From the NCBI RefSeq assembly GCF_014284335.1, contig NZ_JACOGF010000003.1, forward strand, positions 62,001 through 126,000: a DNA stretch of 64,000 bases, given 5' to 3'. The DNA comes from Undibacterium hunanense (lineage in GTDB: Bacteria; Pseudomonadota; Gammaproteobacteria; Burkholderiales; Burkholderiaceae_D). A program made the position numbers and the translations under genes. Below the pieces are notes generated by a model. The model saw only the letters and a list, made by a program, of their open reading frames with translations. It searched no databases and was not told the origin of the DNA. This document shows positions 17,221 to 44,439 of the stretch, piece after piece. The stretch's first letter is position 1. Each line of letters starts with the position of its first letter.

Positions 17221-18551
17221 GAACCCGCCTCGGCCAGCATGTTATTTACTGTATTTTCTTCGGCCTGCCCATCACCGGTGATGGTGTTTGATACCGATGC
17301 AGTTTCTGCTGTGGCACCAGCCGCTGCCCTTGCATACATGCGGGGTGCCAGCAACAAGCCCGTGAATGCGAGGCCGCTGGTAATCATGAAGGTGACACCA
17401 TAGCCAAGTCTGGACGTGACCACACCTGCACTCAGTCCGAATACCAGTGCGCAAAAAGCGTCGGTACACTGCAACAAAGAATAGTCGGTACCTGCCTGTG
17501 CCGGTGATGCCCAGTCCATCATGATGGTGTACAAGACGACAAAGCCCAACGACATTGTGGTGCAGAACAACAAAAACACAGCAGCCAACAAAGGTTTGGC
17601 GTGCCAACCCAAAGTTTCTATCAACAGGTAGGTGAGTTGCAACACCAGATAGGCAATCAGACTGGCTTTCAGCATGCTTAAACGCTGATAACGTTTCAGC
17701 AGAACACCACCCAGCAAGGCGCCGACGACACCGGCAACGGCAACACCGGCACCGGACAGTATGCCGATTTCCACTACTGCAAATCCACGGTCCACCAGAT
17801 AAGTCAGCATGATGGCACTGAACCAGCGCAGCGATGCCTGGCAACTGATGATGGTTGCCATGCCCCAGCGTATGGATGGTCTGCGCCAGGCGGCTTTCAA
17901 ACTTGGTGTTGTGGCAGTCATCGTGGTGACCGGCACTACTGGTACTACTGGCATCACGCGTCGGCGGCGCAACCACAATGCGGGTAAGCCGCACAGTGCA
18001 ACCAATACTGCCAGTGCACGTATGCCGGTTTCCCAGCCCAGGTAGCCCACTGCCGTAACCAGTAAGCCGCCACCAAGTATGTAACCGAGGTAGCTGCCGC
18101 CTATCTGCATGCTGTTGCCAAGTCCGCGCTGTGAGACGGGCAGTGCCTGCACCGCCATGCCATCGGTGACGATGTCTTGCGTCACCGATGCAACCATCAG
18201 CACCAGTAGCAAGAGCATAATGGCTGACAATGCTGATTCCAGTGGCAATAAGGTCAGAATCAGCACACCAATCAACAAGAACAACTGAAAATTGCCTGCC
18301 CAGCACAGGCTTTGTTCAGGCTGGCCGGCAGTCAGGCGATCTATTCTTGACGCCCATAAAAACTTCAGGGCACTCGGTAAAAATAGCAATGACAGCAGAC
18401 CTATCTTGTCCAGCCCTATGCCGCGTGCACGCAATAATACCGGCAGACCTTCGTGCACCAGTCCACTCAACAAACCCTGGGTGGCATATAGCCCACCCAA
18501 TACCGTAAGCAGGCTGCCGGCAGCCATTGGCGTACCAATTTTTTTCATCAT
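17217..18551 (-). CDS. MFS siderophore transporter, RhtX/FptX/YbtX type
   Basis: A 444-aa inner-membrane protein with about 12 hydrophobic segments of the major facilitator type. The N-terminal pattern (GGLYATQGLLSGLVHEGLPVLLRARG, read here in part, and SALKFLWASRIDRL) is that of the RhtX/FptX family, which imports ferric rhizobactin 1021 or ferric pyochelin as a single protein; YbtX in yersiniabactin clusters is related. It overlaps the receptor gene upstream and the fusion gene downstream by ATGA. With the ABC pair in the same operon, the cell has two possible inner-membrane routes for the metal complex. Confidence 0.88.
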   Translation of the reverse strand: MMKKIGTPMAAGSLLTVLGGLYATQGLLSGLVHEGLPVLLRARGIGLDKIGLLSLLFLPSALKFLWASRIDRLTAGQPEQSLCWAGNFQLFLLIGVLILTLLPLESALSAIMLLLLVLMVASVTQDIVTDGMAVQALPVSQRGLGNSMQIGGSYLGYILGGGLLVTAVGYLGWETGIRALAVLVALCGLPALWLRRRRVMPVVPVVPVTTMTATTPSLKAAWRRPSIRWGMATIISCQASLRWFSAIMLTYLVDRGFAVVEIGILSGAGVAVAGVVGALLGGVLLKRYQRLSMLKASLIAYLVLQLTYLLIETLGWHAKPLLAAVFLLFCTTMSLGFVVLYTIMMDWASPAQAGTDYSLLQCTDAFCALVFGLSAGVVTSRLGYGVTFMITSGLAFTGLLLAPRMYARAAAGATAETASVSNTITGDGQAEENTVNNMLAEAGS

Positions 18552-29800: not shown

Positions 29801-32800
29801 AGGCACCACAGGCCAGACTGGTTGCGATGGGCGGTGCGACCGAGGCATCGATCTGGTCCAACTGGTTTATCGTACCGGAAGCCTTGCCAGCGCAATGGCG
29901 TTCCATTCCTTATGGTTATCCGCTTGCCAATCAGCATTATCGCGTACTGGATACGCGCTTGCGCGATTGTCCTGACCATGTCAGCGGTGACTTGTATATC
30001 GGTGGCATTGGCCTGGCTGTCGCATATGAAAATGACCCGGACAGGACGGATGCCAGCTTCATTATCCACCCTGTGCATGGTGAGCGTCTGTACCGTACCG
30101 GTGACCTGGCACGTTATTGGGGTGATGGTACGTTGGAATTTTTAGGGCGGCGTGATTTCCAGGTAAAAATCGCTGGCAATCGCATAGAGTTGGGAGAGAT
30201 TGAAAGTGCCCTGCTAAGTCACCCGGGCGTGCGTGAGGCTGTTGCCGATGCAGTCGGGCCCGCACGTGGCAACAAACGACTGGCGGCCTGGGTAGTGCCG
30301 GACACGGCAGATACCAGTTTATACGATGCTTTTGATGGCAACCCTGCTTTGCATGCTCAGCGCTGGGATGCTGTCATGCAGGCAGCACGCAAGACTTTTG
30401 AACAGGCGTCAGCTTTATCTGCTGCACAACAATTACAGCAAGGGCAGCAATCACAAGAACTGGAGCAATTCTGGGCCCTGATGGACCATGCCGGTCAGTG
30501 CATGATGCGCGATACCTTGCTGGCAGCCGGTCTGAAATTTGGACTGACATCAGACCTGACATCTGGCGACGCAGATACGGATCACATTATGCGTATGCTC
30601 GCACCAGCACCCGATTTGCTCGTGCTGGCACAGCGCTGGTTAAGCACTCTGGATTTCAATGTACCTTACGATAGTGAAGCTGCATGGAATAAGCTGACAC
30701 CGGCTGCGCTGGATTTTGGTTTGTCACGTACTGTCCTGCAACGTCTGCGTTCAGGTGCTGGCCAAAGGCTGGAAGTATTGCGCGGTCATTCCAGCGCGCT
30801 GGAAGTGTTTTATGGTGCAGATGATACGCTGGCACCAGAACAGATGACGCGCATGAACCCCTTGTCCGGCCTTTGCATAAGCGCGCTGGCTGCAGCCATA
30901 CGCAAGCTTGCACAACATCAGGGGCATGCTGTACGAATATTGGAAATTGGTGCACGCAGTGGCGCTGCAACACGAGATTTATTGGCGCAATTAAGTGATT
31001 GCCCCATCAACTATACGTTGACCGACCCTGCGCGCAGCCTGGTCGAGCAGGCTGAACAGGCATTTTCTGCACAAGATGCCAATCCTTTGCATACCATCCA
31101 TTGCCGTGTATTCGAGCATGAACGGGCAGCAGCAACGCAGGGCATGCCGGAATATGAATTCGATGTGGTCATCGCATTCAATGCCCTGCATCGTAGCCGC
31201 AATATACCTGTCTTGCTACGCCGTCTGCGCAGTTTGCTGAATGCAGGTGGCCTCTTGCTGGCGCCGGAAATCACGCGCAACAGCGATTTTCAGTTGGCGA
31301 CCGTAGCCTTGCTGGAAGGTGGTTATACGCAATTCGAAGACTGCCGCCAGGTAAATGGCCTGGCGCTCTTGCCGGAAGATGCATGGCGGCTTGAATTGAT
31401 GCAGGCAGGCTTTGCAGCAACAGCCACGTCGGGCATTGGCGCCGACGCAGGCATGCATTTGCTGGCAGCGCGCCAGACCGACACAGTGCTGCGGTTTGCG
31501 CCACGCCGGCTGATTGAACATCTGGCGACCTTATTGCCAGCGTATATGGTACCGCAGACTATTGTTGAACTTGATGCGCTGCCGCTGTCTGCCACCGGCA
31601 AGGTCATGCGCCAGCAACTGCCACGTCCAGAAATGGGAAGCACACGCCGTATTGCCCGCAATACAAACAGTGACACGTCACCGCCAGCAAACGATCTGCT
31701 CAGGATATGGCAGGAATTGCTGGGTGTTGCAGACCTGCATGGTGATGATGATTTCTTTGATCTTGGTGGCGACAGCCTGATCGCGGTACGCCTGATAGAA
31801 CGGGTACGCCATGGCATGAATGCACATGTTGCCTTGTCTGACCTGTTCGATGCGTCCAGTCTGTCTGCCTTTGCAGAAAGAGTAGCAAATGCAGCACCGT
31901 ATGAAGATAATCTGCCGCCCTTGTTGACTGATCCGGCTGCACGCTATGCGCCCTTCCCATTGACTGATGTACAGCAGGCCTATTGGATAGGACGGGATGA
32001 AAGTTTTGAACTCGGTGGTGTCTCCACACATCTGTATGCAGAAATTGAGGTGGAACAGCTTGCCCTGGCTGACCTGGAACGTGGCTGGCAACAGGTAGTG
32101 GCGCGCCACGACATGCTGCGTGCGGTGATTAATGCCGATGGCACACAGCAGGTAGTACAGGATTTGCCGGTTTATTCTATTGTCAGCCACGATTTACGCC
32201 AGGCCAATGCGGTCGAGGTGTCTGAATGGCTGGAAATCGCACGTCTTGAACTGTCGCATGAAGTATTCGATACCGCGCGCTGGCCCTTGTTTACCGTGCG
32301 TGCCGCACAGATGACGGATAGCCGGGTGCGCTTGTTTGTCAGCCTTGACAATCTGGTGTGTGACGGACGTTCCATGCGTACGCTGCTGGCAGAATGGGCG
32401 CAATTTGCACGCGATCCTGGTTTGCAATTGCCACCGTTGACAGCAAGCTTCCGTGACTACGTCATGCTGACGCAGCAAATCGAGCTGCTACCGTCTTATC
32501 AGCGGTCGCTGGCCTATTGGCATGACAAGTTGAGCACCCTGGCCCCTGCCCCAGCTTTGCCACTGACACAGTACCAACGCGAAGATGTGTCGCCACCCCG
32601 TTTTACACGACGTGAAGCAAGCCTGACGCCGCAAGCCACTCAGGGCTTGCAGGCGCAGGCGGCAGCACATGGTGTCACAGTCAATGCCATATTGCTGGCC
32701 GCATACGGTGAAGTACTGGCGAACTGGTCAGCAATACAGCGCTTCACGCTGAACCTGACACTGTTCAACCGTCCACCGGTACATGAAGAAATCGATGCAT

Positions 32801-33687
32801 TGGTCGGTGATTTCACGTCGCTGGTATTGCTCGGCTTTGACGCAGGTGTGACCGCCAGTTTTGCTGAGAGGGCATTTTCCATGCAGCGGCAGATATGGGC
32901 TGATCTGGAACACATGCAGGTATCTGCCGTGCGCGTATTGCGCGAAACGGCCCGCCGTAACCGTCGCCTGAATCAGGTCGCCATGCCGGTAGTGTTCACC
33001 AGTGGGCTGGGGCTGAATTTGGCCAGCGACGGCGCGGCAGAGCTTGACTGGCTCGGTGAATTTGTTTATGGCATCAGTCAGACGCCACAGGTCTGGATCG
33101 ACCAGCAGGTAGTCGAACGCGATGGCGCCATGGTATTCAATTGGGATTCGGTTGATGCACTGTTCCCCGACGGCTTGCTGGACGACATGTTCCAGGCATA
33201 TCACAAGCTGCTGCTGAATCTGGCACAGCATAGTGATGCATGGCAAAGCAATGTCGTCATGCCAGAAAACCGCTGGTCTGCTGCACCTGTCACAGCTGCC
33301 ACAGCGGCTACCAGCATTTCAACTACAGCATCACCAGATACAGCACCCGTCATTGATGACCAATTATTGCGAGCAGTCAGCAGCCACCTTGCTGCCTTGC
33401 TTGGTCATGATGAACTCGCACCACAGACCAACTTCTTTGAACTGGGTGCGACATCGCTGGACTTGATACGACTACGTCAACAATTGCAGGCAGAGACAGG
33501 CTTGGCACTGAGTATTACCGAAGTATTCCAGCACACCAGCATTGCTTCTCTGGCGGCCCATTTACGCAGTCTGGATCAATCACTGCCTTCGGAAGATGCA
33601 TCCAACGACGAAGCGGGACAAGCCCGCAAGCGTCAACGCCTGGAGAATGAGCGCCGTCGCAAGCGCAGCCAGCAATCAAGGGCCTGA
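20812..33687 (+). CDS. Hybrid PKS-NRPS siderophore synthetase 1 (FAAL to bis-thiazoline)
   Basis: A 4291-aa assembly-line protein. Domains by approximate residues: fatty acyl-AMP ligase 1-600 (YTSGSTGQPKG, PAYGLAEATLL); ACP 620-700 (Ser in GLDSM, 665); KS 750-1167 (Cys915, His1050, His1089); malonyl-type AT 1270-1590 (Ser in GHSIGE, HAFHS motif); KR 1855-2035 (Tyr in IPYGAANAF); ACP 2140-2220 (Ser2181); Cy1 2245-2670 (Asp2380, Asp2385, Ser2388); A 2720-3600, with my manual specificity reading D-L-Y-N-L-S-M-I, close to cysteine; PCP (Ser3655); Cy2 3712-4130 (Asp3846, Asp3851, Ser3854); PCP (Ser4215). A methyltransferase-like region (about 3170-3560) interrupts the A domain, as in HMWP2/PchE where it acts as an epimerase. 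Its SAM motif reads GARSG. There is no DH. As in MicC of micacocidin, the FAAL loads a fatty acid and the PKS module probably extends it iteratively to a 6-alkylsalicylate, after which two cysteines are cyclised. The C-terminus is a basic tail. GAGGT lies 5 nt before the ATG. Confidence 0.93.
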   Translation: MIPAPAISLRQHATLVDWIEHHAKHRPDAEALCFIGQRNDVNGATNDLRLTYADLSERVRCCAASLQRHARPGDSALILFPSGIDYVVALLACFYAGVTGVPVNLPGAARVKRVLPKLGDITRDCRPALLISNSQVAAASGSDLQVFADEHELRLLQLEDMQEDDSQRWQRPQLDGAALAFLQYTSGSTGQPKGVINRHGPLLHNLEFLGRLTAVNTRTASDTVIASWLPLFHDLGLIMGILLPLAYGGRAVYMAPMAFAADPLRWLELATRERATALPCPSFALRLCADEARTAPQRMLAIDLKQVTCLMPAAEPVLPAQVESFYAIFGAHGLQRDAIKPAYGLAEATLLVSAHVDRHNPYFIDVDKAKLERGHAVVSAVHDEHIAAGLRRYTSNGNDFGGQDVRIVDAESHVDLGEDQVGEIWINGPAVAGGYWNKPELNRDIFAACIASININEEDCKPYLRTGDMGFMHQGHLFVTGRLKDMLLFRGQCHYPNDIEATSGRSHEAAVPESGAAFSVTPGDEDAECLVIVQEILKQTGVDYQHIVNTIRASVAEEHQLSSHAIVLIRKGTLPRTTSGKVRRAAVRQAYLDGSLPVLHQHVLDTQQAQQISRDISLLDTLRPLSLAQRHLHLRTWLANETAAILGTVAARAIHPEASLFNYGLDSMSAARLVSTAANACGLTLPDSLIFDHPSLMQLAAWLQIAMLDQAGLPPAADAISSSHSASIHSTSAPDADKGVAAPVSTDREAIAVIGMAFRLPGQDGQDASDDAAFWDMLEQGGCAIRPAPSERFRTREDIPGFGAYLNHVDQFDAAFFGMSPREAMNTDPQQRLLLEVAWHALEDAGQRPAALRGSDTGVFVGIGTGDYGHLPFISGEPSHFDAYWGTGTSFAAACGRLSFSFGWEGPSMAVDTACSASHSALHLAVQSLRARESGLSLAAGVKLQLLPEVDLVLHKAGMLAADGRCKTLDARADGYVRGEGCVVLVLKRLSDALADGDAVRAVIRDTTVRQDGAGSSLSAPNGAAQQRLLTLALKKAGLTPADIDYIELHGTGTRLGDPIEYQSVADVFRGRAIDDPLWLGSVKTNIGHLEAAAGAAGLVKTILAIEHGKLPPAVELHEVNPLIDLDIIPARVPAQTINWPMRQALRRAGVTSYGFAGTIAHVLLEQAPVLAAVTTSSVISEPTQITTPQLFLLSARSAESLRMLASSHVANLPACDDLPALARGMARQREHHGMRVAVLASSREELATGLQQLSASRHAVTEAARNPRIGFLFTGQGSQYSGMARDLYAQQPDFRQALDAADAAMARDLGMSVVALMHDDSYNERLQQTAFAQPALFALGYALAKMWQAFGVQPDIILGHSIGEFAGMVIAGALTLEQAASLIIRRGALMQALPSGGAMLAARATPEQALAVLAELKAVKTGQADDIAIAAFNGPQDVVFSGSAAAIDAVQALLTARQLHARALQVSHAFHSPLLDPMLSAWESACAKQLMQVPRIAVCSSLTAELLEQAPDAAYWRNHARQPVRFDDALKRVASACDILLEIGPNAILSAVSQRNQAAQQWPQAVTCLASLRRGGSDLVAIGDACAALYIAGQDFDWAHVFSGKLPSPRSLPRYPFERQSYWLDYDDDAPHQSLQMQPQPERAAARPVDLYTMQWEHFTLTENATHAPRYFLLGGNIADTSTFAAELQATGADIYLLTAGEWPVAATQLQDTDVVIYLDGWRTQTAHAALSADQSGWQLTEFVKVLQSLEKKPRILLPTKAGQAIAGTPGDPSQATLWGAARALALEYAGPRWLMADSDVGLTPLVSALPALLTLFGSEEAVALREGRWLHPRLDRVSAPSSEKNSLPVLKQDGIYLVAGAYGALGRHATDWLATRGARHLVLLARHAAPSGWQARLALLKAQGIRITHIAADVADADDMARVFVRISSMEHDTGHKLAGVFHCAGTSRFNDLATITSEDYSTVSRAKIQGAWLLHEHTVSRALDYFVCFTSISGIWGSRLQIPYGAANAFQDALARLRHHQGLPALAIAWGPWGGGAGMSEVDEDLLQLLRAAGIRRLAPARYLATLDHLLGGVLDGEKNITDDGTCVAVDVDWQQFVPLYALYNPANTFQRCLTASQASAMAVSATTDTPSALHALDEQARQTAVHVFVIAELARTLRVTPAQLTPDIQLLKLGMDSILVMDFSRRCEAGLGVKCELKAIFERNTPQGLTDYLLEQLSRQVPDSHNQLAAEQIIADPANANAPFPLTELQHAYWIGRHSHYGLGGVACHAYLEADAPDGLDLALLERCWNMLVARHGALRLVIGEDGQQRVLPHVPAYAVHTADLRDATQTAVDTHCTEWRETMSHQVMDAAQWPLFDLRASRLPGGAVRLHIGIDMLINDATSGQIIWEELAALYQAKADLQLAGLLPFQISFRDYVLAKYTHSTQRRAERESARKFWLERIPALPSAPQLPLRAEALRQTSPVFSRRQQQLAAPLWQSLREQAAQAGCTPASLLIAVFAEVLAAWSAEPQFTLNLTIFDRLPWHADVPRLLGDFTAVTLLPLDCSDALPFGQRAAAVNGTVLEHLQHRAFSAVDVMREWNRGRERQDAIAMPVVFTSQLSMSDPTKGAAPDSALGTVVYGISQTPQVWLDHQACELDGALMYNWDAVDALFQPGTLDAMFNAYHAILEKLATQPQAWQQALPNLLPPAQQAIRAQVNASAATIPEHCLDQLFFEQAHHTPRAIALIAHEQQWSYAELADWSLRLTQALLQHDVKRSDRIAIVMRKGPEQVAACLGILAAACVYVPVDADVPAARLQAILDGSHIKLVLTQTDCLPIVQEMCAGRDVAVLDASYAAAQVWPVNVPQVERAVTDHAYVIYTSGSTGIPKGVLIDHRGAANTVLDINRRFDIVHTDRVLGLSSLYFDLSVYDLFGIFAVGAALVLPAASGTRDPAHWLDLLLRHRITVWNSVPALLELLLDEADAAGTSLVGLRQVFLSGDWIALGLPARLRAQAPQARLVAMGGATEASIWSNWFIVPEALPAQWRSIPYGYPLANQHYRVLDTRLRDCPDHVSGDLYIGGIGLAVAYENDPDRTDASFIIHPVHGERLYRTGDLARYWGDGTLEFLGRRDFQVKIAGNRIELGEIESALLSHPGVREAVADAVGPARGNKRLAAWVVPDTADTSLYDAFDGNPALHAQRWDAVMQAARKTFEQASALSAAQQLQQGQQSQELEQFWALMDHAGQCMMRDTLLAAGLKFGLTSDLTSGDADTDHIMRMLAPAPDLLVLAQRWLSTLDFNVPYDSEAAWNKLTPAALDFGLSRTVLQRLRSGAGQRLEVLRGHSSALEVFYGADDTLAPEQMTRMNPLSGLCISALAAAIRKLAQHQGHAVRILEIGARSGAATRDLLAQLSDCPINYTLTDPARSLVEQAEQAFSAQDANPLHTIHCRVFEHERAAATQGMPEYEFDVVIAFNALHRSRNIPVLLRRLRSLLNAGGLLLAPEITRNSDFQLATVALLEGGYTQFEDCRQVNGLALLPEDAWRLELMQAGFAATATSGIGADAGMHLLAARQTDTVLRFAPRRLIEHLATLLPAYMVPQTIVELDALPLSATGKVMRQQLPRPEMGSTRRIARNTNSDTSPPANDLLRIWQELLGVADLHGDDDFFDLGGDSLIAVRLIERVRHGMNAHVALSDLFDASSLSAFAERVANAAPYEDNLPPLLTDPAARYAPFPLTDVQQAYWIGRDESFELGGVSTHLYAEIEVEQLALADLERGWQQVVARHDMLRAVINADGTQQVVQDLPVYSIVSHDLRQANAVEVSEWLEIARLELSHEVFDTARWPLFTVRAAQMTDSRVRLFVSLDNLVCDGRSMRTLLAEWAQFARDPGLQLPPLTASFRDYVMLTQQIELLPSYQRSLAYWHDKLSTLAPAPALPLTQYQREDVSPPRFTRREASLTPQATQGLQAQAAAHGVTVNAILLAAYGEVLANWSAIQRFTLNLTLFNRPPVHEEIDALVGDFTSLVLLGFDAGVTASFAERAFSMQRQIWADLEHMQVSAVRVLRETARRNRRLNQVAMPVVFTSGLGLNLASDGAAELDWLGEFVYGISQTPQVWIDQQVVERDGAMVFNWDSVDALFPDGLLDDMFQAYHKLLLNLAQHSDAWQSNVVMPENRWSAAPVTAATAATSISTTASPDTAPVIDDQLLRAVSSHLAALLGHDELAPQTNFFELGATSLDLIRLRQQLQAETGLALSITEVFQHTSIASLAAHLRSLDQSLPSEDASNDEAGQARKRQRLENERRRKRSQQSRA

Positions 33688-33772: not shown

Positions 33773-36700
33773 ATGAATACAAGCAATCACAACAAACCGG
33801 CGTCCGTACCAGACTATGGCGACACCATGCCTGTCGCCATCATCGGCGCTGGTTGCCGCATGCCACGTGCTGACGATATCTTCGAATATTGGCGCAGACT
33901 GGCAGATGGCGAGGAATTAATCGATTTTTTTGATGCAGAACAATTGACTGCAGCCGGCGTTGACCCTGCCCTGTTGCAGCGCCCGGGTTATGTACCCGCT
34001 GCTGCGGTGGTGGCAAATGCCGACCGCTTTGACTGGGGTTTCTTTGGCTATTCGCGTCATGAAGCAGAATCCATTGATCCGCAGCAAAGGCTGTTTCTGA
34101 TGTGTGCCTGGGAAGCGCTGGAAATGGCCGGGCATACACCTGCCGAACTGGCAGCCAGAGGAGATGAATTGAAGATAGGCGTGATCGGCGCCTGCAAGAT
34201 GAGTAGCTATCCCGCAGCTACTTTCGACAAAATGGAAGAAATCGCCTCACCATCCACCTTCGCCCGCCTGATCGGCAATGACAAGGATTATCTTGCCACA
34301 CGCGTGTCCTACAAGCTGGGTTTGACCGGCCCCAGCATGACGGTGCAGACAGCCTGCTCCAGTTCCCTGGTGGCGATACATCTGGCTTGTGAACAGATCG
34401 CCAGCGGTGAATGCGATATGGTATTGGCGGGCGGTGCCGGTATCGGCTTTCCGCAAGAATCCGGTTATGTACACCGCGAAGGCATGATTTTTTCCCACGA
34501 TGGCCATTGTCGCCCCTTTGATGCAGATGCCGGTGGCACCACGATAGGCAATGGTGTTGCGGTGGTGTTGTTGAAATCGCTGGAGCGTGCTCTGGCCGAT
34601 GGCGACCCGGTGCTGGCGATCGTACGTGGTTCTGCCGTCAATAATGATGGTGCCGGCAAGGCTGGTTTCACCGCACCATCGCCAGAAGGCCAGGCACGCG
34701 TCATCAGTGAGGCCCTGGTCATGGCCGAGATAGATCCAGCCAGCATAGGCCTGGTCGAAGCGCACGGCACGGCAACTCCTCTGGGCGACCCTATCGAGGT
34801 GGAAGCCCTGACCCGAGCCTGGCGCCGGCACACCGGGGCAAGCCAGTATTGCGCCCTGGGTTCAGTCAAATCCAATCTGGGTCATCTGGATACGGCAGCA
34901 GGTGTAGCCAGTTTTGTCAAGGCGGCCATGGCACTGCACTTTGGCCAGGTGCCGCCCAGCCTGCATTATGAACAGGCCAATCCTGCCATTGATTTTGAAA
35001 ACAGCCCTTTCTTTGTTCCGCAAATGCTATTGCCATGGCCCCTCAACGAAGGCCCACGCCGCGCAGCAGTCAGTGCTTTTGCCATAGGCGGTACCAATTG
35101 TCATGCAATACTGGAACAGGCTCCACTACGTGCTGCACTGACACCGGCGAATGGAACACCGGTATTGTTGTTGCTCAGTGCCCGCAGTGAAGCAGCTTTG
35201 AAGACGCTGGCGCAGCGTCATGCATGGCGTCTGTGTGAATGGACTGCCGATCAGTCACTGGCAGATTATTGCGCCACCGGCGTCCATCATCGCAGTGTGT
35301 ATCCTTATCGTCTGGCTTTGCTGGCCGATGGTGCAGATGACCTCATCAGCCTGCTGTATGCCTTTATTGATGGCGATGGAGCCAAAACGAAAAAGCTGCA
35401 AAGCAATCAGATCCAGGCCTGGGTAGCCAATGCGCTGACACCTGGAGTTGACAACCAGGTCTTGTCTGATTTTGTCGCAGTACAGGCAATTGCCGAACGG
35501 CCTGCATGGGATCAGCATCCTGTTTCTGCCATTCGCCCGGTTGCACGCGCCCTGTTACCGACTTGTCCTTTTGAAGGGGAGCGTTGCTGGTACACAAAAC
35601 CGGGGGCTGCATCAGTGGCCAACTCAGTTACCACCTCAGTCAACACCCCGGTCGCCACCAGCGATGATGGACATCCGGCATGGCATGCCATGCGTAATGC
35701 TGGCCATCATAGCGCTGCGATGCTGGCTGCCGACCTGGATTTGTCGGCCCTGCCTCGCGAAAATGAAGGGGTTGATGCGCTGCATGCCGCCTATGTTGGC
35801 CAGGCATTTGCCACACTGCGTGTGTTTGAAAGCAATGACAACGATAAATGGATGGATGTGGATGCTTGCCTGCAGGCAGCCGGAGCGCCAGCGCGTTACC
35901 GGCAATTGTTTACACGCCTGCTGCGTGACCATGCCGATGCTGGTTTGCTGCAAAAACGTGGCGAAGGAGAACAAACAAGTTTTCGTCACTTGCGTACAGA
36001 CATACGACCTGACCCCGGCCCGTGGCTGGTGTTGATGCGTGAACTGGGTTATCAGCAACTGGCTGATCTGGTCGAACGCACAGGCCCACGTCTGGCCGAT
36101 ATGCTGGCCGAAAAAGTGGATGCGGTCAGCATTGTTTTTCCCGGTGCGGCTACTGATGATGTCGAACATATGTACCAGGACCAACCGTATTCGGTGTACC
36201 TGAACCGCATTGCTGCGGCGACAGTCGCCGGCCTGGCGAAAGCACATGACCGCCCATTGCGGATACTGGAAGTGGGTGGAGGAACTGGTGGAACGACCCG
36301 CGACATCCTTGCGCAATTACCTGCCGGTGCCTGCGAGCTTTACACTTTCACCGATCTGGGTATCTTGTTCCTGCAAAAGGCACGCAAGAAATTTGCGGCC
36401 TACCCTTTCATGCAATATCAAAGTTTTGACATGAATGGGGCAGCTATTGCCCAGGGGCTGGCGGCTGGTGGATATGACCTGATTGTCGCCGCCAATGTTT
36501 TGCACAATGCTCCTGATTTACGCATCATGCTGGCTAATCTGGCCACGGCACTGGCACCAGACGGCGTGCTGATGATGCGTGAAATAACGACACCGAAAAA
36601 ATTGTTCGACTTTGTCTTTGGCCCTCTGGTACCAGCCTTAAGCGACAGCGATCAGCGTGACGGCGAATTGTTCGCCAGCCGCCTGCGCTGGCAGCAGGCA

Positions 36701-39700
36701 CTGACAGATGCCGGTTTTGCCCAGGTCGACGCCATGCCCGGAGAAGGCTTGCCTGCCCACGCACTGGGTGAACAGATTTTGGTGGCCCGCTGGCCTGGTA
36801 CAGGTACACATGCGGTCGCGACAAGCATTGCAGATAATTCGCTCATCCCGATTAGTCCAGCTAGTACAGTGATAACTGCGGATACGGCACATGTGCTAGA
36901 GATACAGCAGCCAACTGTCGGTAATATCATCACAGCCATACTCGCCTGGCTGTCAAAGTTAACACCTTCAACACCCGCCACACGCTGCCAGCTGGAGCAA
37001 CTGCGCTGGCACCTTGATATCAGCAATGCACCTGCCCCTTTGCAATTAACACTGACTTGCAGCGGTGACAGTCTGCGGGCCGTAGTTAAGGATGAACGCG
37101 GCATTTCGCAAACTTTGCTGACTGCGACAGTGTCACACCCCCGGGGATTGCGCAGGCATGACAAACAAGGTGTTGAGGCCATACATTTTGATCCTTCCGG
37201 CCACAGCCTGCTTGATCGGGTCATCAAGGCTTTAAGTGATGATACATCCCTGTTTACTGGCATAGGCAGCCTGTACTGGCCTGTTTCTTCAGAAACCCTG
37301 CAAAGCCTGCGTTTATACATTACTGAACATGGGGCTGTGGTGACTGACGCCACGGGTCAGGTACAACTTGATCTGCGTGGTTTGACTATATTGCGCCACC
37401 CTGCCTGTCTGCCATCCTTGTGGAACAACGAAGGTGACGCCGAACTGTTTGACTGGCAGTGGCAACCAGTATCTGTGACCAGTCAGTTGCTGCCATTACC
37501 TCGGCGTGTGCTGTATATCAGTGATGAAAATCAGTCAGAGTTCAGGCAGGTATTAAATAAATCGGGTGTTGAGTGCAGCCTGCTCTCTATGGACAAACTT
37601 GCACAGGATAAAGACGCACTGTTAACGCATCTGGGTACAGATGTGTCAGGTCTGGATACACCATTTGATGCAGTCGTATATAAAGCACCACCCGTCAATG
37701 ATCTCGACGATGCCGTCTCTTTATTTGAAACCGCAGGCGTGACGCCGTTGGTGAATTTGATGTCTGCACTGGCAGTACTGCCCGGCGTGCCAGCTTTATT
37801 CGTCATCAGCCCACATGCCTATGCAGTGACAGACACGGATCAATGTACCGCCTGGCCAGCCGCAGGCATTAGTGGATTATTGGCAGTTGCAAGACAGGAA
37901 ATGCCTGGTCTGCATTGCGTGCAACTCGATACTGGCGACGCCAGCGTACAAGAACAGGTACAGACGCTGTTGCAGTTATGCCGGGATGGACAGTCAAGCC
38001 AGGCACCGGTACTGACTTTGCGGGAGGGAGGCTTGTATCGTCAACAATTGACGCCATCACGCTTGCCAGCAGCAGCTACCCTGCCACAGGGACGCCATGT
38101 CCTGATCGGAGGTTTGTGTGAACTAGGGCTGGAACTCGCAAAGTGGCTGGTTGCCAGCGGCGCACGTGATCTGCTCTGGCTGACACGTCGTCTGCCGGAC
38201 GCCAAAGAAAAACAGGCTCTGGATATCTTGCGTGTTCAGGGTATCACGGTAGAGATTGATGCCCATGCGGATGTCACAGATGTAAAAGCATTTACGGTTG
38301 CACTGCAAAGACTGAAGGATGGTCCATCACTGGGCATTGTGTTTCATCTCGCAGGTGTCGTGAATGATGCGCCTCTGAGCGCCATACGACCGCAAGACTG
38401 GGAAGTCAGTCTGTCGACCAAATTGCGCGCGGCTTTGCGTCTGCACACACTGGAAGCGCAGTTGCAGCCAGCGCTGACAGTGTATTTTTCTTCCGCTGCC
38501 AGTGCATTTGGTCCGGTCGGACAGGGAAGCCATGCGCTGGCCAATGCCATGCTGGAGGGTTTGGCCACATATCGCAGCCGTGCCGGTTATGACACACTGG
38601 CGCTAGCCTGGGGTTTTTGGCGAGAGATAGAAAGCGAGACACGTCAGGGTTTGGCTGCTTATCTGGCCGAACGTGGCATGCTGGGGATGTCCAGCGCACA
38701 GGGATGGGCATTGCTCGCAGCAGCCATGGGCGGCAATGCTTCGGTTTACCTGCCCTGCCATGTTGACTGGAAACGCTTTTCAGCGCAGGCAACGCCTGCA
38801 CAGCAAGCACGTTTTGGCGCTTGCTGGAAAGATGTTGTACCGCTCGCCGCAAGTATGCAAAAGCAGGCTGTGGCTGACAATTCCGGCATGACCCTGCCCC
38901 AGCAATTACGTCTGCATATTGCCGGCTTGCTTGGTTGCCCTGTCGATCAGGTGAATGAAGACAGCAAGCTGGTGCAGATGGGTCTGGATTCATTACTGAT
39001 GCTGGATCTGGCAGAGCAGTTAAAACAAAAATATGGTGTGACCTTGTCTGCCGAGATGCTGTTCAGGGCTGACACGCCAAAAACACTGGCAGCCGCGCTG
39101 CAATTGCAGATGGATGGGCTGGCAGATCCGGTAACAGCCTTGTTGCAGGCAGAAGCGGCATCCGCCTTGCCGGCAGCACACCGTTATTTGCGCAGTCGTT
39201 TGGGCAGTTTGCTGCAATGTGCTGAAGCAGACGTGAATGCAGACACCAAACTGGTAGAGCTGGGCCTGGATTCCTTGCTGTTCCTGGAGTTGAGCGAAAC
39301 CATACAGCAGGAACTGGGATTCAAACTGTCTGCTGAAGTTGCATTTCAAGGTGGTAGCCTGGCGGCACTGGCAACGGTATTGGTGCAAGCACTTCATCCA
39401 CAACTGGCCGCCGAAACAAAAACACCTTCCATATCAGGTTTGCGCCAGGCACTGCTGGAACTGGAACAGCGCGAAGGTGGCTGGCTGGCCGGTAATGGCG
39501 ATGTGTTGCCACGTTCAGACAATAAATTGCAAGCGCTGACAGGCTTGCGCAAGCTGCGCTGGCAGTTGCGCAGCAATGATTTGCCGCAGCAGTTGTATGT
39601 GGAATTTGATAAACCAGGCCATTTTGATCTGGATATTTTTGAACGTGCATGGCAATTGCTGCTGGAACGACATGCTGCGCTACGCAGCACAATTGACGCA

Positions 39701-40888
39701 CAGGCAGATTTACATATCATGGATAAGGCAAGCCACTATCCAATCCAGTCGATTGATCTGCGTGGTCTGTCGATCCAGCAAAGGAATGATGCGCTGGCTG
39801 CTCTGCGGGAAGAAATGACGCTGGCAAAAACTGATCTTCAGCAGTGGCCGCATTTCGATTGGCGCGCCAGCAGGATTTATCTGGAAAATCAGGATATCTT
39901 GCGCATACATCTGCGTATTGACACAACATTGACGGATATAGAGAGTTTTCGCATTATGTTGCGCGAATTGCATTTGTGGGTGCTTGATCCGCAACGCCGT
40001 TTACCTGCCTTGCAATTTGGTGCGCATGACTATTACGCGTGTGAACAGGCCTTGACTACGACCTCTGTTTATAAAAAACAGTCAGAGACATATGGCAAGC
40101 AACTGGCGCAATTACCGCCGCCCCCGCCTTTGACAGCATCAGCCAAAAACGAAATATCCGGAATATCTGGTGGTCACACGGCGGTATGGCGCGATGCCCT
40201 GCCACGCACAAACTGGCTGGCATTGAAAGCGACCGCCACACAAGCAGGTTTGACCGGCACCGCTGTCATGCTGGCGGCGTATGCCACAGCTATTGCAGCA
40301 TGCTCGGAACGAGCTGACTTCAGCCTGCGACTTGATTACCCGGACCGCAAGCCCTTGCACGCACAGATAGGTAACGTCATGCTGGATGCCAGTGACTGTG
40401 CCGTAATTGGTTGCCGTATTGATGCTGGCAGCTTTATGGCATTGGCCCAGGCGTGTGGCGAGGCTATCCGGCAAAGACTGGCTGCCGATCTGCTGGATGG
40501 TGCTGGCGTGCTGGCGGCGTATTGTTCTGCTGGTGTAGCAGGTACAAAACGTGTAGATGGTCCGCCATTGCCGCCTGTCGCCATGACCAGTCTTTTGGGT
40601 GTACGCACCACCTATGCAATTCCAGAAACCTCCGATCCCTTGCTGGGGATGCCAGCCTATGAGATTGCGACACAGCCAGGCACTGCGCTACATTTCCAGG
40701 TACTGGAGGAAGAAAGTGCACTGCTGTATAACATTGATCTGCGTACAGATTTGTTAGCCAGGGAACTGGGCGATACGCTGATGCGTTATTTGGCCACTAC
40801 CCTGCAGGTTTTGGCTAGCTCCCAGGCAGCCTGGAATACCGCGCCCAAAAACTTGCTGCAACCAGTCAAAGAGGCGGTACATGGCTGA
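33773..40888 (+). CDS. AT-less PKS / terminal Cy-like synthetase 2
   Basis: A 2371-aa protein that extends the chain from synthetase 1. Domains by approximate residue: KS 19-440 (Cys195 in TACSSS, His331, His371); a short linker with a post-AT-like PTCPFEGERCWY but no acyltransferase; C-methyltransferase 640-1010 (LEVGGGTGGTT); structural and catalytic KR halves, the latter at 1440-1620; two tandem ACPs (Ser1740, Ser1834); and a C-terminal Cy-like domain 1890-2371. The KR has His1587 where the catalytic Tyr belongs and a broken NADPH motif (IGGLCELG). The Cy-like domain keeps DTTLTDIES (Asp2050, Asp2055, Ser2058) but lacks the FPLT..Q.AYW and QTPQVWLD motifs seen in Cy1 and Cy2 of synthetase 1. 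No PCP or thioesterase follows. HMWP1 of yersiniabactin has KS-AT-MT-KR-ACP-Cy-MT-PCP-TE by contrast. The start at 33773 is chosen for AAGGA at 33763-33767; ATG at 33770 and 33755 are alternatives. It lies 85 nt after synthetase 1 and overlaps the reductase gene by 8 nt. Confidence 0.9.
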   Translation: MNTSNHNKPASVPDYGDTMPVAIIGAGCRMPRADDIFEYWRRLADGEELIDFFDAEQLTAAGVDPALLQRPGYVPAAAVVANADRFDWGFFGYSRHEAESIDPQQRLFLMCAWEALEMAGHTPAELAARGDELKIGVIGACKMSSYPAATFDKMEEIASPSTFARLIGNDKDYLATRVSYKLGLTGPSMTVQTACSSSLVAIHLACEQIASGECDMVLAGGAGIGFPQESGYVHREGMIFSHDGHCRPFDADAGGTTIGNGVAVVLLKSLERALADGDPVLAIVRGSAVNNDGAGKAGFTAPSPEGQARVISEALVMAEIDPASIGLVEAHGTATPLGDPIEVEALTRAWRRHTGASQYCALGSVKSNLGHLDTAAGVASFVKAAMALHFGQVPPSLHYEQANPAIDFENSPFFVPQMLLPWPLNEGPRRAAVSAFAIGGTNCHAILEQAPLRAALTPANGTPVLLLLSARSEAALKTLAQRHAWRLCEWTADQSLADYCATGVHHRSVYPYRLALLADGADDLISLLYAFIDGDGAKTKKLQSNQIQAWVANALTPGVDNQVLSDFVAVQAIAERPAWDQHPVSAIRPVARALLPTCPFEGERCWYTKPGAASVANSVTTSVNTPVATSDDGHPAWHAMRNAGHHSAAMLAADLDLSALPRENEGVDALHAAYVGQAFATLRVFESNDNDKWMDVDACLQAAGAPARYRQLFTRLLRDHADAGLLQKRGEGEQTSFRHLRTDIRPDPGPWLVLMRELGYQQLADLVERTGPRLADMLAEKVDAVSIVFPGAATDDVEHMYQDQPYSVYLNRIAAATVAGLAKAHDRPLRILEVGGGTGGTTRDILAQLPAGACELYTFTDLGILFLQKARKKFAAYPFMQYQSFDMNGAAIAQGLAAGGYDLIVAANVLHNAPDLRIMLANLATALAPDGVLMMREITTPKKLFDFVFGPLVPALSDSDQRDGELFASRLRWQQALTDAGFAQVDAMPGEGLPAHALGEQILVARWPGTGTHAVATSIADNSLIPISPASTVITADTAHVLEIQQPTVGNIITAILAWLSKLTPSTPATRCQLEQLRWHLDISNAPAPLQLTLTCSGDSLRAVVKDERGISQTLLTATVSHPRGLRRHDKQGVEAIHFDPSGHSLLDRVIKALSDDTSLFTGIGSLYWPVSSETLQSLRLYITEHGAVVTDATGQVQLDLRGLTILRHPACLPSLWNNEGDAELFDWQWQPVSVTSQLLPLPRRVLYISDENQSEFRQVLNKSGVECSLLSMDKLAQDKDALLTHLGTDVSGLDTPFDAVVYKAPPVNDLDDAVSLFETAGVTPLVNLMSALAVLPGVPALFVISPHAYAVTDTDQCTAWPAAGISGLLAVARQEMPGLHCVQLDTGDASVQEQVQTLLQLCRDGQSSQAPVLTLREGGLYRQQLTPSRLPAAATLPQGRHVLIGGLCELGLELAKWLVASGARDLLWLTRRLPDAKEKQALDILRVQGITVEIDAHADVTDVKAFTVALQRLKDGPSLGIVFHLAGVVNDAPLSAIRPQDWEVSLSTKLRAALRLHTLEAQLQPALTVYFSSAASAFGPVGQGSHALANAMLEGLATYRSRAGYDTLALAWGFWREIESETRQGLAAYLAERGMLGMSSAQGWALLAAAMGGNASVYLPCHVDWKRFSAQATPAQQARFGACWKDVVPLAASMQKQAVADNSGMTLPQQLRLHIAGLLGCPVDQVNEDSKLVQMGLDSLLMLDLAEQLKQKYGVTLSAEMLFRADTPKTLAAALQLQMDGLADPVTALLQAEAASALPAAHRYLRSRLGSLLQCAEADVNADTKLVELGLDSLLFLELSETIQQELGFKLSAEVAFQGGSLAALATVLVQALHPQLAAETKTPSISGLRQALLELEQREGGWLAGNGDVLPRSDNKLQALTGLRKLRWQLRSNDLPQQLYVEFDKPGHFDLDIFERAWQLLLERHAALRSTIDAQADLHIMDKASHYPIQSIDLRGLSIQQRNDALAALREEMTLAKTDLQQWPHFDWRASRIYLENQDILRIHLRIDTTLTDIESFRIMLRELHLWVLDPQRRLPALQFGAHDYYACEQALTTTSVYKKQSETYGKQLAQLPPPPPLTASAKNEISGISGGHTAVWRDALPRTNWLALKATATQAGLTGTAVMLAAYATAIAACSERADFSLRLDYPDRKPLHAQIGNVMLDASDCAVIGCRIDAGSFMALAQACGEAIRQRLAADLLDGAGVLAAYCSAGVAGTKRVDGPPLPPVAMTSLLGVRTTYAIPETSDPLLGMPAYEIATQPGTALHFQVLEEESALLYNIDLRTDLLARELGDTLMRYLATTLQVLASSQAAWNTAPKNLLQPVKEAVHG

Positions 40889-42041
40889 TATTCTGAATGT
40901 GGTTGTCTGTGGTACCCGTTTTGGTGAACATTATCTGGCGGCACTTAACTGCGCTGAACATCTGTGGTCTGCCCGGCCTGCGCATTTGCCACGCTATCGC
41001 CTGGCAGGCATCGTGGCACGTGGCAGTGCCCGTTCGCTGGCACTGGCTGAAAAACTGGCAGTACCCTTGTACACCGATGTCGCCCATCTGCCGGACGATA
41101 TTGATATTGCCTGTGTCGTTGTGCGCAGTGCGATTGTTGGTGGGGACGGTTCGGCGCTGGCGCGCAGTCTGCTGACAAAAGGTATTCATGTGCTGCAGGA
41201 GCATCCGGTGCATCCGACCGACATCTTGCGCCTGCGTGCCTTGGCGGCACAACATGGAAAATGCTATCACGTCAATACTTTTTATCCGCATCTGCCTGCC
41301 GGTCAGCGTTTCATTGATTATGCAAGACAGAGTGCCAGGCAACGGCCACCAGCTTTCGTAGAAATAACGACGAGTTTGCAACTGCTGTATTCCAGCCTGG
41401 ACATTGTTTGCCGCGCGCTGGGTAAGGCTACCCCTTTTGCATGCTCGCAACCCCTGGCCCTGCATGCTGAGCTTGCTGAATGGCTTGCTGACTATACATC
41501 GCCCTGGCCCTTCCGTGCTGTACAGGGCTTGATAGGTGGCGTGCCATTTTCATTGAATCTGCAAACCTGGTTGGATCCGGACGACCCCGATCACCATAGC
41601 CTGGTAATGCACCGTATTGCTATCGGTGGCCCTGAAGGCAATGTCTTGCTGGCCAATAGTTATGGACCTGTCGTCTGGAGTCATCCCATCTATGCGCCAG
41701 ACTATGAGCGCGATGACGCCCAGTCATCTTATCTGCTGGCACCAGATCACTTCGCGGAAAGCCGTTTCAACCGGCAACCGACAGCTACGATATTTGGCAA
41801 GCAGCATGGGCCCAGTCTGACTGAAGCAGCAACACATGATTTTTCGCTGGCAATTCATGCCGCGCTTGACGAATTGATGCAGGAAGACGCGCCGGTTCAC
41901 CAAGAGCATTGGTGGCAAGCGCATGGCGATGCCTGGCTGGGCATCATGCGTGCTGTCGGTCCAGCGCAACTGACTAGCCGGCCACCGCCAGCGCCCCCTT
42001 ATCCCGACCCGCTTGCCTATGCAAAGGAGTGCCAGACATGA
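40881..42041 (+). CDS. Thiazolinyl imide reductase
   Basis: A 386-aa NADPH-dependent enzyme of the YbtU/Irp3/PchG family, related to Gfo/Idh oxidoreductases. It reduces the second thiazoline ring to a thiazolidine while the chain is bound to the carrier protein. The N-terminal nucleotide-binding motif VVVCGTRFGEHYLAAL, the middle EHPVHP segment and the NTFYPHLPAG stretch are family features. It overlaps the end of synthetase 2 by 8 nt (ATGGCTGA) and the next gene by ATGA, so it is tightly coupled to the assembly line. Its presence supports a thiazoline-thiazolidine product, as in yersiniabactin, pyochelin, micacocidin and agrochelin. Confidence 0.93.
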   Translation: MADILNVVVCGTRFGEHYLAALNCAEHLWSARPAHLPRYRLAGIVARGSARSLALAEKLAVPLYTDVAHLPDDIDIACVVVRSAIVGGDGSALARSLLTKGIHVLQEHPVHPTDILRLRALAAQHGKCYHVNTFYPHLPAGQRFIDYARQSARQRPPAFVEITTSLQLLYSSLDIVCRALGKATPFACSQPLALHAELAEWLADYTSPWPFRAVQGLIGGVPFSLNLQTWLDPDDPDHHSLVMHRIAIGGPEGNVLLANSYGPVVWSHPIYAPDYERDDAQSSYLLAPDHFAESRFNRQPTATIFGKQHGPSLTEAATHDFSLAIHAALDELMQEDAPVHQEHWWQAHGDAWLGIMRAVGPAQLTSRPPPAPPYPDPLAYAKECQT

Positions 42042-43744
42042 ATCAAGCTGCAATGTCACCTCAAGTTTCATCGTCCGCTACACTGGATCGTAACCGTCAG
42101 GCTTACGCAGGCTTGGCCGAGGTGCTGGAAAATGCCGGTTTGGCAGAACATGCGCTGTACCTGAACTGGGGTTACGCTCCACAAACTGGTTTGCCTGATT
42201 GGGCATCAAACGTACTCCCGCCGGGAGAAACCGGCATGGCCCAGGCTCGCCTGATACTGGAAGTGCTGGGAGACACACCGCTGACGGGAAAACGTGTGCT
42301 GGATGTGGGTTGTGGTCGTGGTGGTGCGCTGGCCTTGCTTGCACGCTTATATCCTGACAGCAATCTGGCAGGTGCAGACCTGAGTGCTGCCAATATTGCG
42401 TATTGCCGCAAGCGCCACCAGCATGCCCGTTTGCGCTTCCAGGTTGCCGATGCCTGTCGCCTGCCCTACCCGGACCAGAGTGTGGATGTGTTGTTGAATC
42501 TGGAGTCATCCGGTGCCTATCCGGATTTGCCGGCATTTTTTGCGCATGCTTATCGTGTATTGAAACCTGGCGGGCGCTTTTGCTATGCAGACGTAGTGGC
42601 AGCCGATGCGCTGGACGCTGTACGCCAGGCGCTGCAACAAACAGGTTTCGTACTGGAGCGTCAACGCTCTGTTAGCAGGCAAGTGTGTGCTGCCAGAACA
42701 GCCAGCCCTGCAGGTCTGTGGACTCGCCTGGACAATGCCCTGAATGCACTCAACAAACCAGGTTTGCGTGCAGAACTGGAACGCTATCTGGCCCAGCCTG
42801 AATCCGGATTGTTCCATGCATTGCAGGATGGGCGTGCTGACTACCATATCTTTCATTTGCGGCGTGACTACACCAACGCAGGCAAGGTCAGTAAGGACAT
42901 TGCCGCGCAACTGTTGGAACGTTCTGCCAGGCTTGATCAACTGGAAAATCCGGCAACGCTTGCCGCGTCGGCGTCGGCATGGTTTCCATTTTCCACCCCT
43001 GATGCCAGCCGTGGGTGTAATGTGTTTGCCTTGCCCTATGCTGGTGGTGGTGCATCGGTATATCGTCAATGGCAATTACCGCCGCGTGATGCGGGACCAG
43101 CCTGGCGCGTATGTCCATTGCAACTGCCCGGGCGTGAAAGCCGCCTCACAGAAGCTGCCATCAATGACATGGAGGTCATGGTGGACCAGATTGTCGCAGC
43201 GATTGCACCTTACACTCATCTGCCCTGGGCCTTGATGGGATGCAGCCTGGGTTGCAAGATCGCGTATGAAGTGGCGCGCCGTTTTGAACTTATGGGGCGC
43301 AAGCCGGCATTGCTGTTTCTTATGGCCTGCCCTGCCCCCAGTCTGCCATTGAAACGTCGCGTATCGACTTATAACGACCATGATTTCGCCGGTGAGGTAA
43401 GGCATCTGGGCGGTACGCCACCAGAGATCATGGCCGATGCTGAAATGATGCGTACCATCATGCCGATATTGCGTAACGATAGTGCACTGGCGGAAGGCTA
43501 TACCGCGCTTGCAGATAGCAAGATTAATGTCCCCATGCTGATGGTGGCCGCCAGCGATGATCATCTGGTCACGGTGGAAGAAGCACGCCGCTGGGGACGC
43601 CATGCCGGTGCCGGTTTTGACTGGCGCATGGTGGACGGAGGACATTTTTTCCTGCGCCAGCGCCGGCAGGAATTGCTGGGCTGGCTACACGATGCACTCA
43701 GGGCCAGTGAACACAAAATGGGAGAAGTATTATTGTGTCAATAG
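42038..43744 (+). CDS. Methyltransferase-thioesterase fusion 2 (Ser nucleophile)
   Basis: A 568-aa two-domain protein. Residues ~45-230 form a SAM methyltransferase (LDVGCGRGGALALLARL, GADLSAANI, LKPGGRFCYADVV). Residues ~320-560 form a type II-like thioesterase (FALPYAGGGASVYRQW, CPLQLPGRES, GCSLGC, His in DGGHFFL). The nucleophile is Ser here, while the paralogue at 15562-17220 has Cys. The ATG at 42038 has AAAGGAG 8 nt upstream and overlaps the reductase stop; the GTG at 42029 is less likely. Because synthetase 2 has no thioesterase, this is the best candidate for chain release, and its methyltransferase for N-methylation of the thiazolidine formed by the preceding gene. These roles are inferred from position. 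Confidence 0.88.
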   Translation: MNQAAMSPQVSSSATLDRNRQAYAGLAEVLENAGLAEHALYLNWGYAPQTGLPDWASNVLPPGETGMAQARLILEVLGDTPLTGKRVLDVGCGRGGALALLARLYPDSNLAGADLSAANIAYCRKRHQHARLRFQVADACRLPYPDQSVDVLLNLESSGAYPDLPAFFAHAYRVLKPGGRFCYADVVAADALDAVRQALQQTGFVLERQRSVSRQVCAARTASPAGLWTRLDNALNALNKPGLRAELERYLAQPESGLFHALQDGRADYHIFHLRRDYTNAGKVSKDIAAQLLERSARLDQLENPATLAASASAWFPFSTPDASRGCNVFALPYAGGGASVYRQWQLPPRDAGPAWRVCPLQLPGRESRLTEAAINDMEVMVDQIVAAIAPYTHLPWALMGCSLGCKIAYEVARRFELMGRKPALLFLMACPAPSLPLKRRVSTYNDHDFAGEVRHLGGTPPEIMADAEMMRTIMPILRNDSALAEGYTALADSKINVPMLMVAASDDHLVTVEEARRWGRHAGAGFDWRMVDGGHFFLRQRRQELLGWLHDALRASEHKMGEVLLCQ

Positions 43745-44439
43745 CAGTTTGGCCAATGGAAAAAGTCGCCGGCTCCCTGGCTTTGGATAAAAACGAGATC
43801 ATGGTGATATTGGCGAAACGCGACATGGCCAGTATCATTCCCCTGCACTTGCTGAATGACAGGGAAATGGCCAGATACCAGGCCTTCGTTTTTGTAGCTG
43901 ACCGCCAGCGTTATCTGGTTGCCCATGGCTTGAAACGGCAAGTGCTGGCGCAGTTGACAGGCAAGTCTCCCGCAGCATTGCAGTTTCATGCGGGGCCGGC
44001 AGGTAAGCCCTATTTGGCCGACGTTAACCTGCATTTTAATTTATCACATAGTGGTGACTGGATTGCACTTGCTTTCTGTGTAAGACATCCGCTTGGTATT
44101 GACGTTGAACAGCCAAGAAACATCTGTTATGACAGCCTGTGGAAGCAGATTGCACATCCACAAGATCAGATATCCTTACAGGAATACACTGAAGAGAAAA
44201 CTGAGGAACAAGGTTTCCTGGCGACGTGGAGCATGAAGGAAGCAGTAGCAAAATGCACGGGTCTGGGCTTGTCCATGGATTTTCCTTCCCTGCGCCTTAC
44301 CCCTGATGGGAGCGGCAAGCATGTCTGTGTTAACCGGGATGGTGCCTGGTACATCAGGCATTTCATTCATGAAGATATGCACATGGCTGTTGCCAGTAGC
44401 GATGCAGACTTGCGGCTTCGGCTTGTGCAACTGACTTGA
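43735..44439 (+). CDS. 4'-phosphopantetheinyl transferase, Sfp type
   Basis: A 234-aa enzyme that attaches the phosphopantetheine arm of coenzyme A to carrier-protein serines, here the six carriers of the two synthetases. Motifs are visible in order: GKPYLADVNLHFNLSHSGDW, GIDVEQPR (metal-binding Asp and Glu) and WSMKEAVAKCTGLGL. The GTG at 43735 overlaps the end of the fusion gene and has GGAGA upstream; an ATG at 43756 would give a slightly shorter protein. It is the last gene of the rightward operon and converges with the cytochrome gene 56 nt further on. Confidence 0.92.
   Translation: MSIAVWPMEKVAGSLALDKNEIMVILAKRDMASIIPLHLLNDREMARYQAFVFVADRQRYLVAHGLKRQVLAQLTGKSPAALQFHAGPAGKPYLADVNLHFNLSHSGDWIALAFCVRHPLGIDVEQPRNICYDSLWKQIAHPQDQISLQEYTEEKTEEQGFLATWSMKEAVAKCTGLGLSMDFPSLRLTPDGSGKHVCVNRDGAWYIRHFIHEDMHMAVASSDADLRLRLVQLT

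Follow-up and report, generated by a model that had tools for sequence, protein, structure and literature searches.

The locus analysed here encodes two large synthetases, the second of which contains a polyketide synthase (PKS) module with a KS, two ACPs and no acyltransferase (AT), raising the question of how this module is supplied with malonate. We favour, with a probability of about two in three, the reading that synthetase 2 is a MicG-type module of a massiliachelin-like line that has lost its own AT and would receive malonate in trans from the AT of synthetase 1. The preliminary description had seen in it a trans-AT module inside an otherwise cis-AT locus, to be loaded either by the AT of synthetase 1 or by the host FabD.

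Synthetase 2 lies on the forward strand at positions 33773–40888 of the window (the whole 64-kb stretch of DNA analysed); the open frame ends at 40888 and encodes 2371 residues when read from 33773, in the order KS, KS–AT linker, post-AT motif, C-methyltransferase (MT), KR, ACP, ACP and a C-terminal Cy-type condensation domain. The KS (33815–34972; residues 15–400, Pfam match 20–400) has its active-site TACSSS at residue 193. Its flank, the KS–AT linker (34979–35377; residues 403–535), was delimited from PF16197, PF22621, alignment and a model; Pfam places a KS C-terminal extension at 403–486 and a CurL-type linker at 465–528, and a RhiE-type linker model (PF22336) matched under its cut-off. 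The post-AT motif LLPTCPFEGERCW (35552–35590; residues 594–606) is followed by the MT (36173–36952; residues 801–1060, Pfam match about 810–940) and the KR (38078–38692; residues 1436–1640, Pfam match 1440–1618). ACP 1 (38873–39127; residues 1701–1785) and ACP 2 (39155–39412; residues 1795–1880) carry GLDSL at 1737 and 1831, respectively, and the Cy-type domain (39548–40837; residues 1926–2355) has DTTLTDIES at 2050, with a partial Pfam Condensation match of 41 bits against a cut-off of 30.6. The MT between linker and KR and the terminal Cy-type domain were both absent from the preliminary description.

Pfam found no Acyl_transf_1 in synthetase 2 in the same run that matched residues 1272–1582 of synthetase 1, and a motif scan of synthetase 2 found no GHSxG. 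A custom AT profile built from relatives of synthetase 2, run with filters off and E up to 10, matched nothing between its KS and MT, and the KS-to-MT stretch searched alone with the AT profile gave −1.2 bits. Together, the Pfam and profile searches led us to reject an AT hidden in residues 440–640, the region for which a domain search had been proposed. The preliminary account of a KS module without an AT, a linker ending in a post-AT-like motif and two tandem ACPs therefore holds in all three respects, the last through two PP-binding stretches that both carry GLDSL. It had also named a frameshift or assembly error as a way in which an AT might have been concealed; this is very unlikely, because the AT-less layout is common to 33 distinct proteins among the best 120 of 2056 homologues.

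These homologues were obtained with residues 380–1000 of synthetase 2 as the query. The best 120 of the 2056 were examined together with synthetases 1 and 2, giving 122 sequences, of which 109 contain a single KS, a single KR and an MT at the expected position; the remaining 13 were excluded (P0033, P0041, P0053, P0076, P0079, P0084, P0090, P0091, P0112, P0118, P0119, P0120 and synthetase 1). The 109 comprise 34 AT-less rows, 74 with a cis AT and one that is unclear (P0038). Since P0001 is synthetase 2 itself, the 34 rows represent 33 distinct AT-less proteins, namely synthetase 2 and 32 others. Within the same best 120, the KS-to-MT spacing is 352–417 residues in the 33 distinct AT-less proteins (median 378), compared with a median of 666 (range 298–700) in the 74 cis-AT proteins. 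An alignment of synthetase 2 with 12 AT-less relatives shows that all of them lack the AT core at the corresponding position but retain the KS–AT linker; ten have a recognisable post-AT tail, which varies to, for example, GQRC (P0011 and P0012) or LFDKERCW (P0034), whereas in P0029 and P0049 this tail is poor. The KS, MT, ACP and Cy motifs of synthetase 2 are conserved across 21 aligned sequences. The AT-less layout is thus a conserved architecture, common in the MicG family, to which published siderophore lines belong, and the lack of an AT is a trait of the family rather than an artefact. Three proteins of the MicG clade, P0030–P0032, keep an AT.

Twin ACPs are frequent in the family, occurring in 18 of the 33 distinct AT-less proteins versus one of the 74 with an AT (best 120 of 2056). 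The sole case among the 74 is P0030, which has an AT plus two ACPs, and 15 of the 33 AT-less proteins have a single ACP; given this exception and the single ACP in nearly half of the AT-less proteins, twin ACPs are not cleanly tied to AT loss and were rejected as a sign of it.

Upstream on the same strand, synthetase 1 (MicC-type; 20812–33687) reads FAAL-ACP-KS-AT-KR-ACP-Cy-A(MT)-PCP-Cy-PCP. Its AT (24577–25611), the proposed donor to synthetase 2, has GHSIG at residue 1360 and HAFH at 1469; we take HAFH in these ATs to be a mark of malonyl specificity. Downstream, also on the forward strand, are a thiazolinyl imide reductase (40881–42041; TIGR01761, 458 bits against a cut-off of 188.8), a methyltransferase-thioesterase (MT-TE) protein (42029–43744) with no PP-binding match in Pfam and a thioesterase motif GCSLG, and a phosphopantetheinyl transferase (43735–44439). 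The strand opposite to the synthetases carries a TonB-dependent receptor gene (18548–20602) as well as genes for MFS and ABC transporters. No third NRPS gene was found within 10001–56000. A second MT-TE protein is encoded on the reverse strand at 15562–17220, its thioesterase motif GHCLG having Cys in place of the expected nucleophile Ser.

With a KS, linker and MT without an AT, then KR, ACPs and Cy, preceded by a FAAL-ACP-KS-AT-KR-ACP-Cy-A-PCP-Cy-PCP partner and adjoined by a thiazolinyl imide reductase, synthetase 2 is by its domain order a MicG-type partner of the massiliachelin, micacocidin and agrochelin lines, and hence of a known kind. The locus product is probably a massiliachelin-type iron-scavenging molecule. 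The massiliachelin locus of Massilia sp. NR 4-1 is of the micacocidin type, retaining micC and micG but lacking micH (PMC6604713), and resembles the present one in its two large synthetases and thiazolinyl imide reductase; here, too, the region read holds no third NRPS gene. Massiliachelin carries a dimethylated β-hydroxy acid unit such as synthetase 2 would add (PMC6604713). The homologous synthetase 2 of G621 is likewise AT-less but is fused with the reductase in one open frame of 2743 residues (L108 7333–15561). Provided that the massiliachelin strain, like G621, has a synthetase 2 without an AT, loading of such modules evidently takes place in vivo.

For micacocidin, made by MicC and MicG of Ralstonia solanacearum, the comparison is with P0006 of R. 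pseudosolanacearum (2380 residues), which from its size and species is probably MicG; it is AT-less, has two ACPs and a Cy, and shares 60% identity with synthetase 2 over residues 380–1000. In the micacocidin line, a further thiazoline is due to MicH (PMC6604713), for which no gene was found within 10001–56000 here. For agrochelin II, the comparison is made through the Stappia loci L005 (G681) and L006 rather than the published agrochelin strain: in both, synthetase 2 lacks an AT and carries two ACPs; its partner is of the MicC type in G681 and, within the reach of the locus, in L006 as well; and the Stappia proteins form a separate AT-less branch in the trees. No statement that MicG is without an AT was found in the literature searched, a search outside which the figures of PMC6604713 lay.

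HMWP1 shares with synthetase 2 the order KS-(AT)-MT-KR-ACP-Cy and the KS group, but not the gap between KS and MT. In HMWP1, the Cy is followed by MT-PCP-TE in the same chain, whereas synthetase 2 ends after the Cy and the MT-TE is a separate gene. The cis AT that the preliminary description ascribed to HMWP1 at this place is indeed retained there by HMWP1-type relatives, the 74 cis-AT rows (best 120 of 2056), which include P0030–P0032 of the MicG clade.

A whole-genome search gave three AT matches: synthetase 1, FabD and an MdcH-like protein, the latter two encoded on contigs other than that of the synthetase locus. FabD scores 344 bits with TIGR00128 (cut-off 260.9) and its gene neighbours fabG- and fabH-like genes; the MdcH-like protein scores 242 bits, under its cut-off of 297.9, and adjoins MdcB (312 bits, cut-off 282.35). 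The only match in the 64-kb window is the AT of synthetase 1, so that the window indeed contains no free AT gene, as first described, and no separate AT of the kind that trans-AT PKSs have inside or close to their clusters was found. A free AT dedicated to the module and encoded outside the window was also rejected, the other two matches being FabD and the MdcH-like protein. These results support the view that either the AT of synthetase 1 or FabD must do the loading.

Homologous loci bear on the choice between these donors; 1984 genomes were used, most of those sampled giving no match to an MT profile derived from AT-less proteins. Each of the 16 distinct AT-less loci inspected has an AT on the same strand as the MT, 9.5–10.7 kb upstream of it (G000, G668, which is the same plasmid as W01, G620, G554, G621, G178, G487, G515, G680, G681, G682, G683, W02, W03, the Enterovirga locus G1057 or L017, and G1464), a set that leaves out many AT-less proteins, e.g. 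P0006, P0010, P0012 and P0024. For 13 of the 16 (G668 via W01), the domain order of each of the two synthetases was read, and in all 13 the partner AT resides in a FAAL/KS/AT/Cy/A synthetase and keeps GHS[IV]G and HAFH. In G487, G515 and G682, AT absence in synthetase 2 rests on a PF00698 search (for G682 also on L006). In W01, the AT-bearing partner is split over two frames, and in W02 a chance GHSEG occurs inside the MT. Conversely, a cis AT directly precedes the MT in 13 of 13 HMWP1-type loci inspected (G235, L008–L016, L018, L019 and G1636), in L016 across a frame break. The partner is on record in 11 of these 13, L010 and L018 beginning too late to show it; it shows Cy, A and PCP, with a KS or AT in none, and for L008, L014 and L019, where the partner start is cut off, the whole-genome search found no second AT on the contig. 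Weaker MT matches (E 1e-50 to 1e-58; G411, G648, G751, G798, G876, G881, G1072, G1081, G1508, G1516 and G1701) were not counted, nor were loci L020–L082, the KSs of which entered the 162-row tree described below. Because the MT profile came from AT-less proteins and the loci share descent, these counts are not independent trials; the co-occurrence may reflect inheritance rather than repeated dependence, and if the partners of P0030–P0032 also bear an AT the complementarity would not be strict. In plasmid pUKW01 of Undibacterium sp. KW1 (L083 6899–26657), synthetase 1 is broken in two between its KS and its AT, and the break in synthetase 2 falls inside the Cy.

The comparison across loci favours, without proving, the AT of synthetase 1 over FabD as the donor. 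A less likely but real rival is that FabD loads the twin ACPs in trans and the AT of synthetase 1 is confined to its own module. The genome has a clear fabD gene beside fabG- and fabH-like neighbours, and there are precedents: FabD is reported as the trans-AT of the AT-less PKS of barnesin (PMC13096860), and a Streptomyces malonyl-CoA:ACP transacylase restored an AT-null erythromycin module (PMC6164871). Free-standing AT frames of about 310–430 residues, shown to be FabD only here, occur in every whole genome inspected, and frames of FabD size are thus present in cis-AT genomes too, yet a partner AT accompanies all 16 AT-less loci. Were FabD sufficient, AT-less modules would be expected in lines without any AT, and there are none among the loci inspected. 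Loading by both enzymes with little specificity is less probable still; malonyl ATs can act on foreign ACPs (PMC6164871), but dual loading alone leaves the partner AT in every inspected AT-less locus unexplained. That the module is dead or bypassed and its missing AT the decay of an unused module is highly improbable, since although no malonate donor is fused to synthetase 2 and its terminal Cy is not followed by a PCP among the genes read, the motifs of its KS, MT, ACPs and Cy are present and conserved, and massiliachelin contains the unit that it would add (PMC6604713).

The resemblance of synthetase 2 to trans-AT PKSs lies in the kept KS flank together with the junction motif LPTxPFxxxxxW, which is described for trans-AT lines (PMC6941969). 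A predicted fold of the KS plus flank (mean pLDDT 79.3) gave as best matches KS2 of OzmN and KS1 of OzmQ from the trans-AT oxazolomycin system and KS12 of bacillaene, all AT-less KSs, as would be expected of any AT-less module whatever its ancestry; the top PDB match, 7zma, was discarded because it led only through the summing of two KS domains. In a KS tree of 56 rows, the MicG and HMWP1 KSs form one group (support 100/99) apart from 12 presumed trans-AT KSs and two oxazolomycin KSs, a small sample in which the 12 come from five proteins and are so labelled as no AT follows them. A larger, quicker tree of 162 rows again separates the MicG and HMWP1 KSs from these 12. Despite these fold matches, descent from a trans-AT line was rejected, since the KS of synthetase 2 clusters with HMWP1 and apart from the trans-AT clades in this small sample. 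The initial impression of an odd trans-AT module in a cis-AT locus gives way to that of an HMWP1 relative with a layout common in the MicG family.

In a tree of KS, MT and KR with 71 rows (33 AT-less, one unclear and every second of the 74 cis-AT proteins, from the best 120 of 2056), the AT-less proteins group with P0030, P0032 and P0038 in a single larger clade, which requires two changes in AT content. The best trees agree on two changes, and a single change suffices in 20% of the bootstrap trees of the 56-row KS tree. By its KS, MT and KR, synthetase 2 belongs to the same clade as the Ralstonia and Stappia proteins.

Vestiges of an AT are seen in Haematospirillum sp. G683 (L007) and its relative G1464, where a partial AT without GHSxG precedes the MT and the partner AT is intact. 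On PF00698, the partial ATs cover positions 3–119 and 3–120 and score 34 and 32.8 bits against a cut-off of 32.7. P0038 resembles them in its truncated AT without GHSxG. For the yersiniabactin AT, a Ser-to-Ala change in the GHSxG motif made transacylation undetectable (PMC4186864). In the Enterovirga protein (G1057), KS and MT are far apart, and the stretch between them gives no AT score. The KS grouping with HMWP1 and the vestigial ATs make AT loss the likely direction, and from these comparisons synthetase 2 has most likely lost an AT of its own.

Under the proposed mechanism, the AT of synthetase 1 would load its own ACP in an iterative aryl-forming module, the aryl unit being built from three malonyl-CoA in the published proposal (PMC10291242). 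It would also load the twin ACPs of synthetase 2 with malonate for one more unit, and one AT would thereby serve both subunits. The KS of synthetase 2 would then extend the thiazoline-bearing chain by this malonyl unit, its MT would dimethylate and its KR reduce the keto group, and the separate MT-TE protein may methylate the product, release it or both. Beyond this locus, we lean towards regarding MicG-type lines as a stable natural case of AT sharing between subunits, with about four malonyl units per product, in which cis ATs would decay once a partner is present and the truncated AT without the active-site motif (Haematospirillum-type) would be a surviving intermediate. The analysis adds to what was known of these lines a test of AT absence across the family, the pattern of one AT per line in the inspected loci and the vestigial ATs. 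The gap in the massiliachelin and micacocidin pathways, namely the loader of the second module, can now be addressed by a simple experiment in vitro. AT sharing, should it be confirmed, would provide a model from nature for the way in which embedded ATs turn trans-acting and AT-less modules arise, and would be useful for polyketide synthase engineering.

Some further features of the locus may be mentioned. The Cy of synthetase 2 (39548–40888, forward strand) is conserved and keeps DxxxxDxxS, although no PCP was found after it within 10001–56000. An ORF of 1809 residues on the reverse strand (48939–54368) gave only a weak multicopper oxidase match and is adjoined by SCO1-like and β-propeller-like genes. 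The KR of synthetase 2 (38078–38692, forward strand) has His in place of the expected catalytic Tyr; by pattern, this His occurs in 65 of the 74 cis-AT and 28 of the 34 AT-less rows (best 120 of 2056), with Tyr once and the rest unparsed, and the same replacement is remarked upon for HMWP1, MicC and AgrA in PMC12997852.
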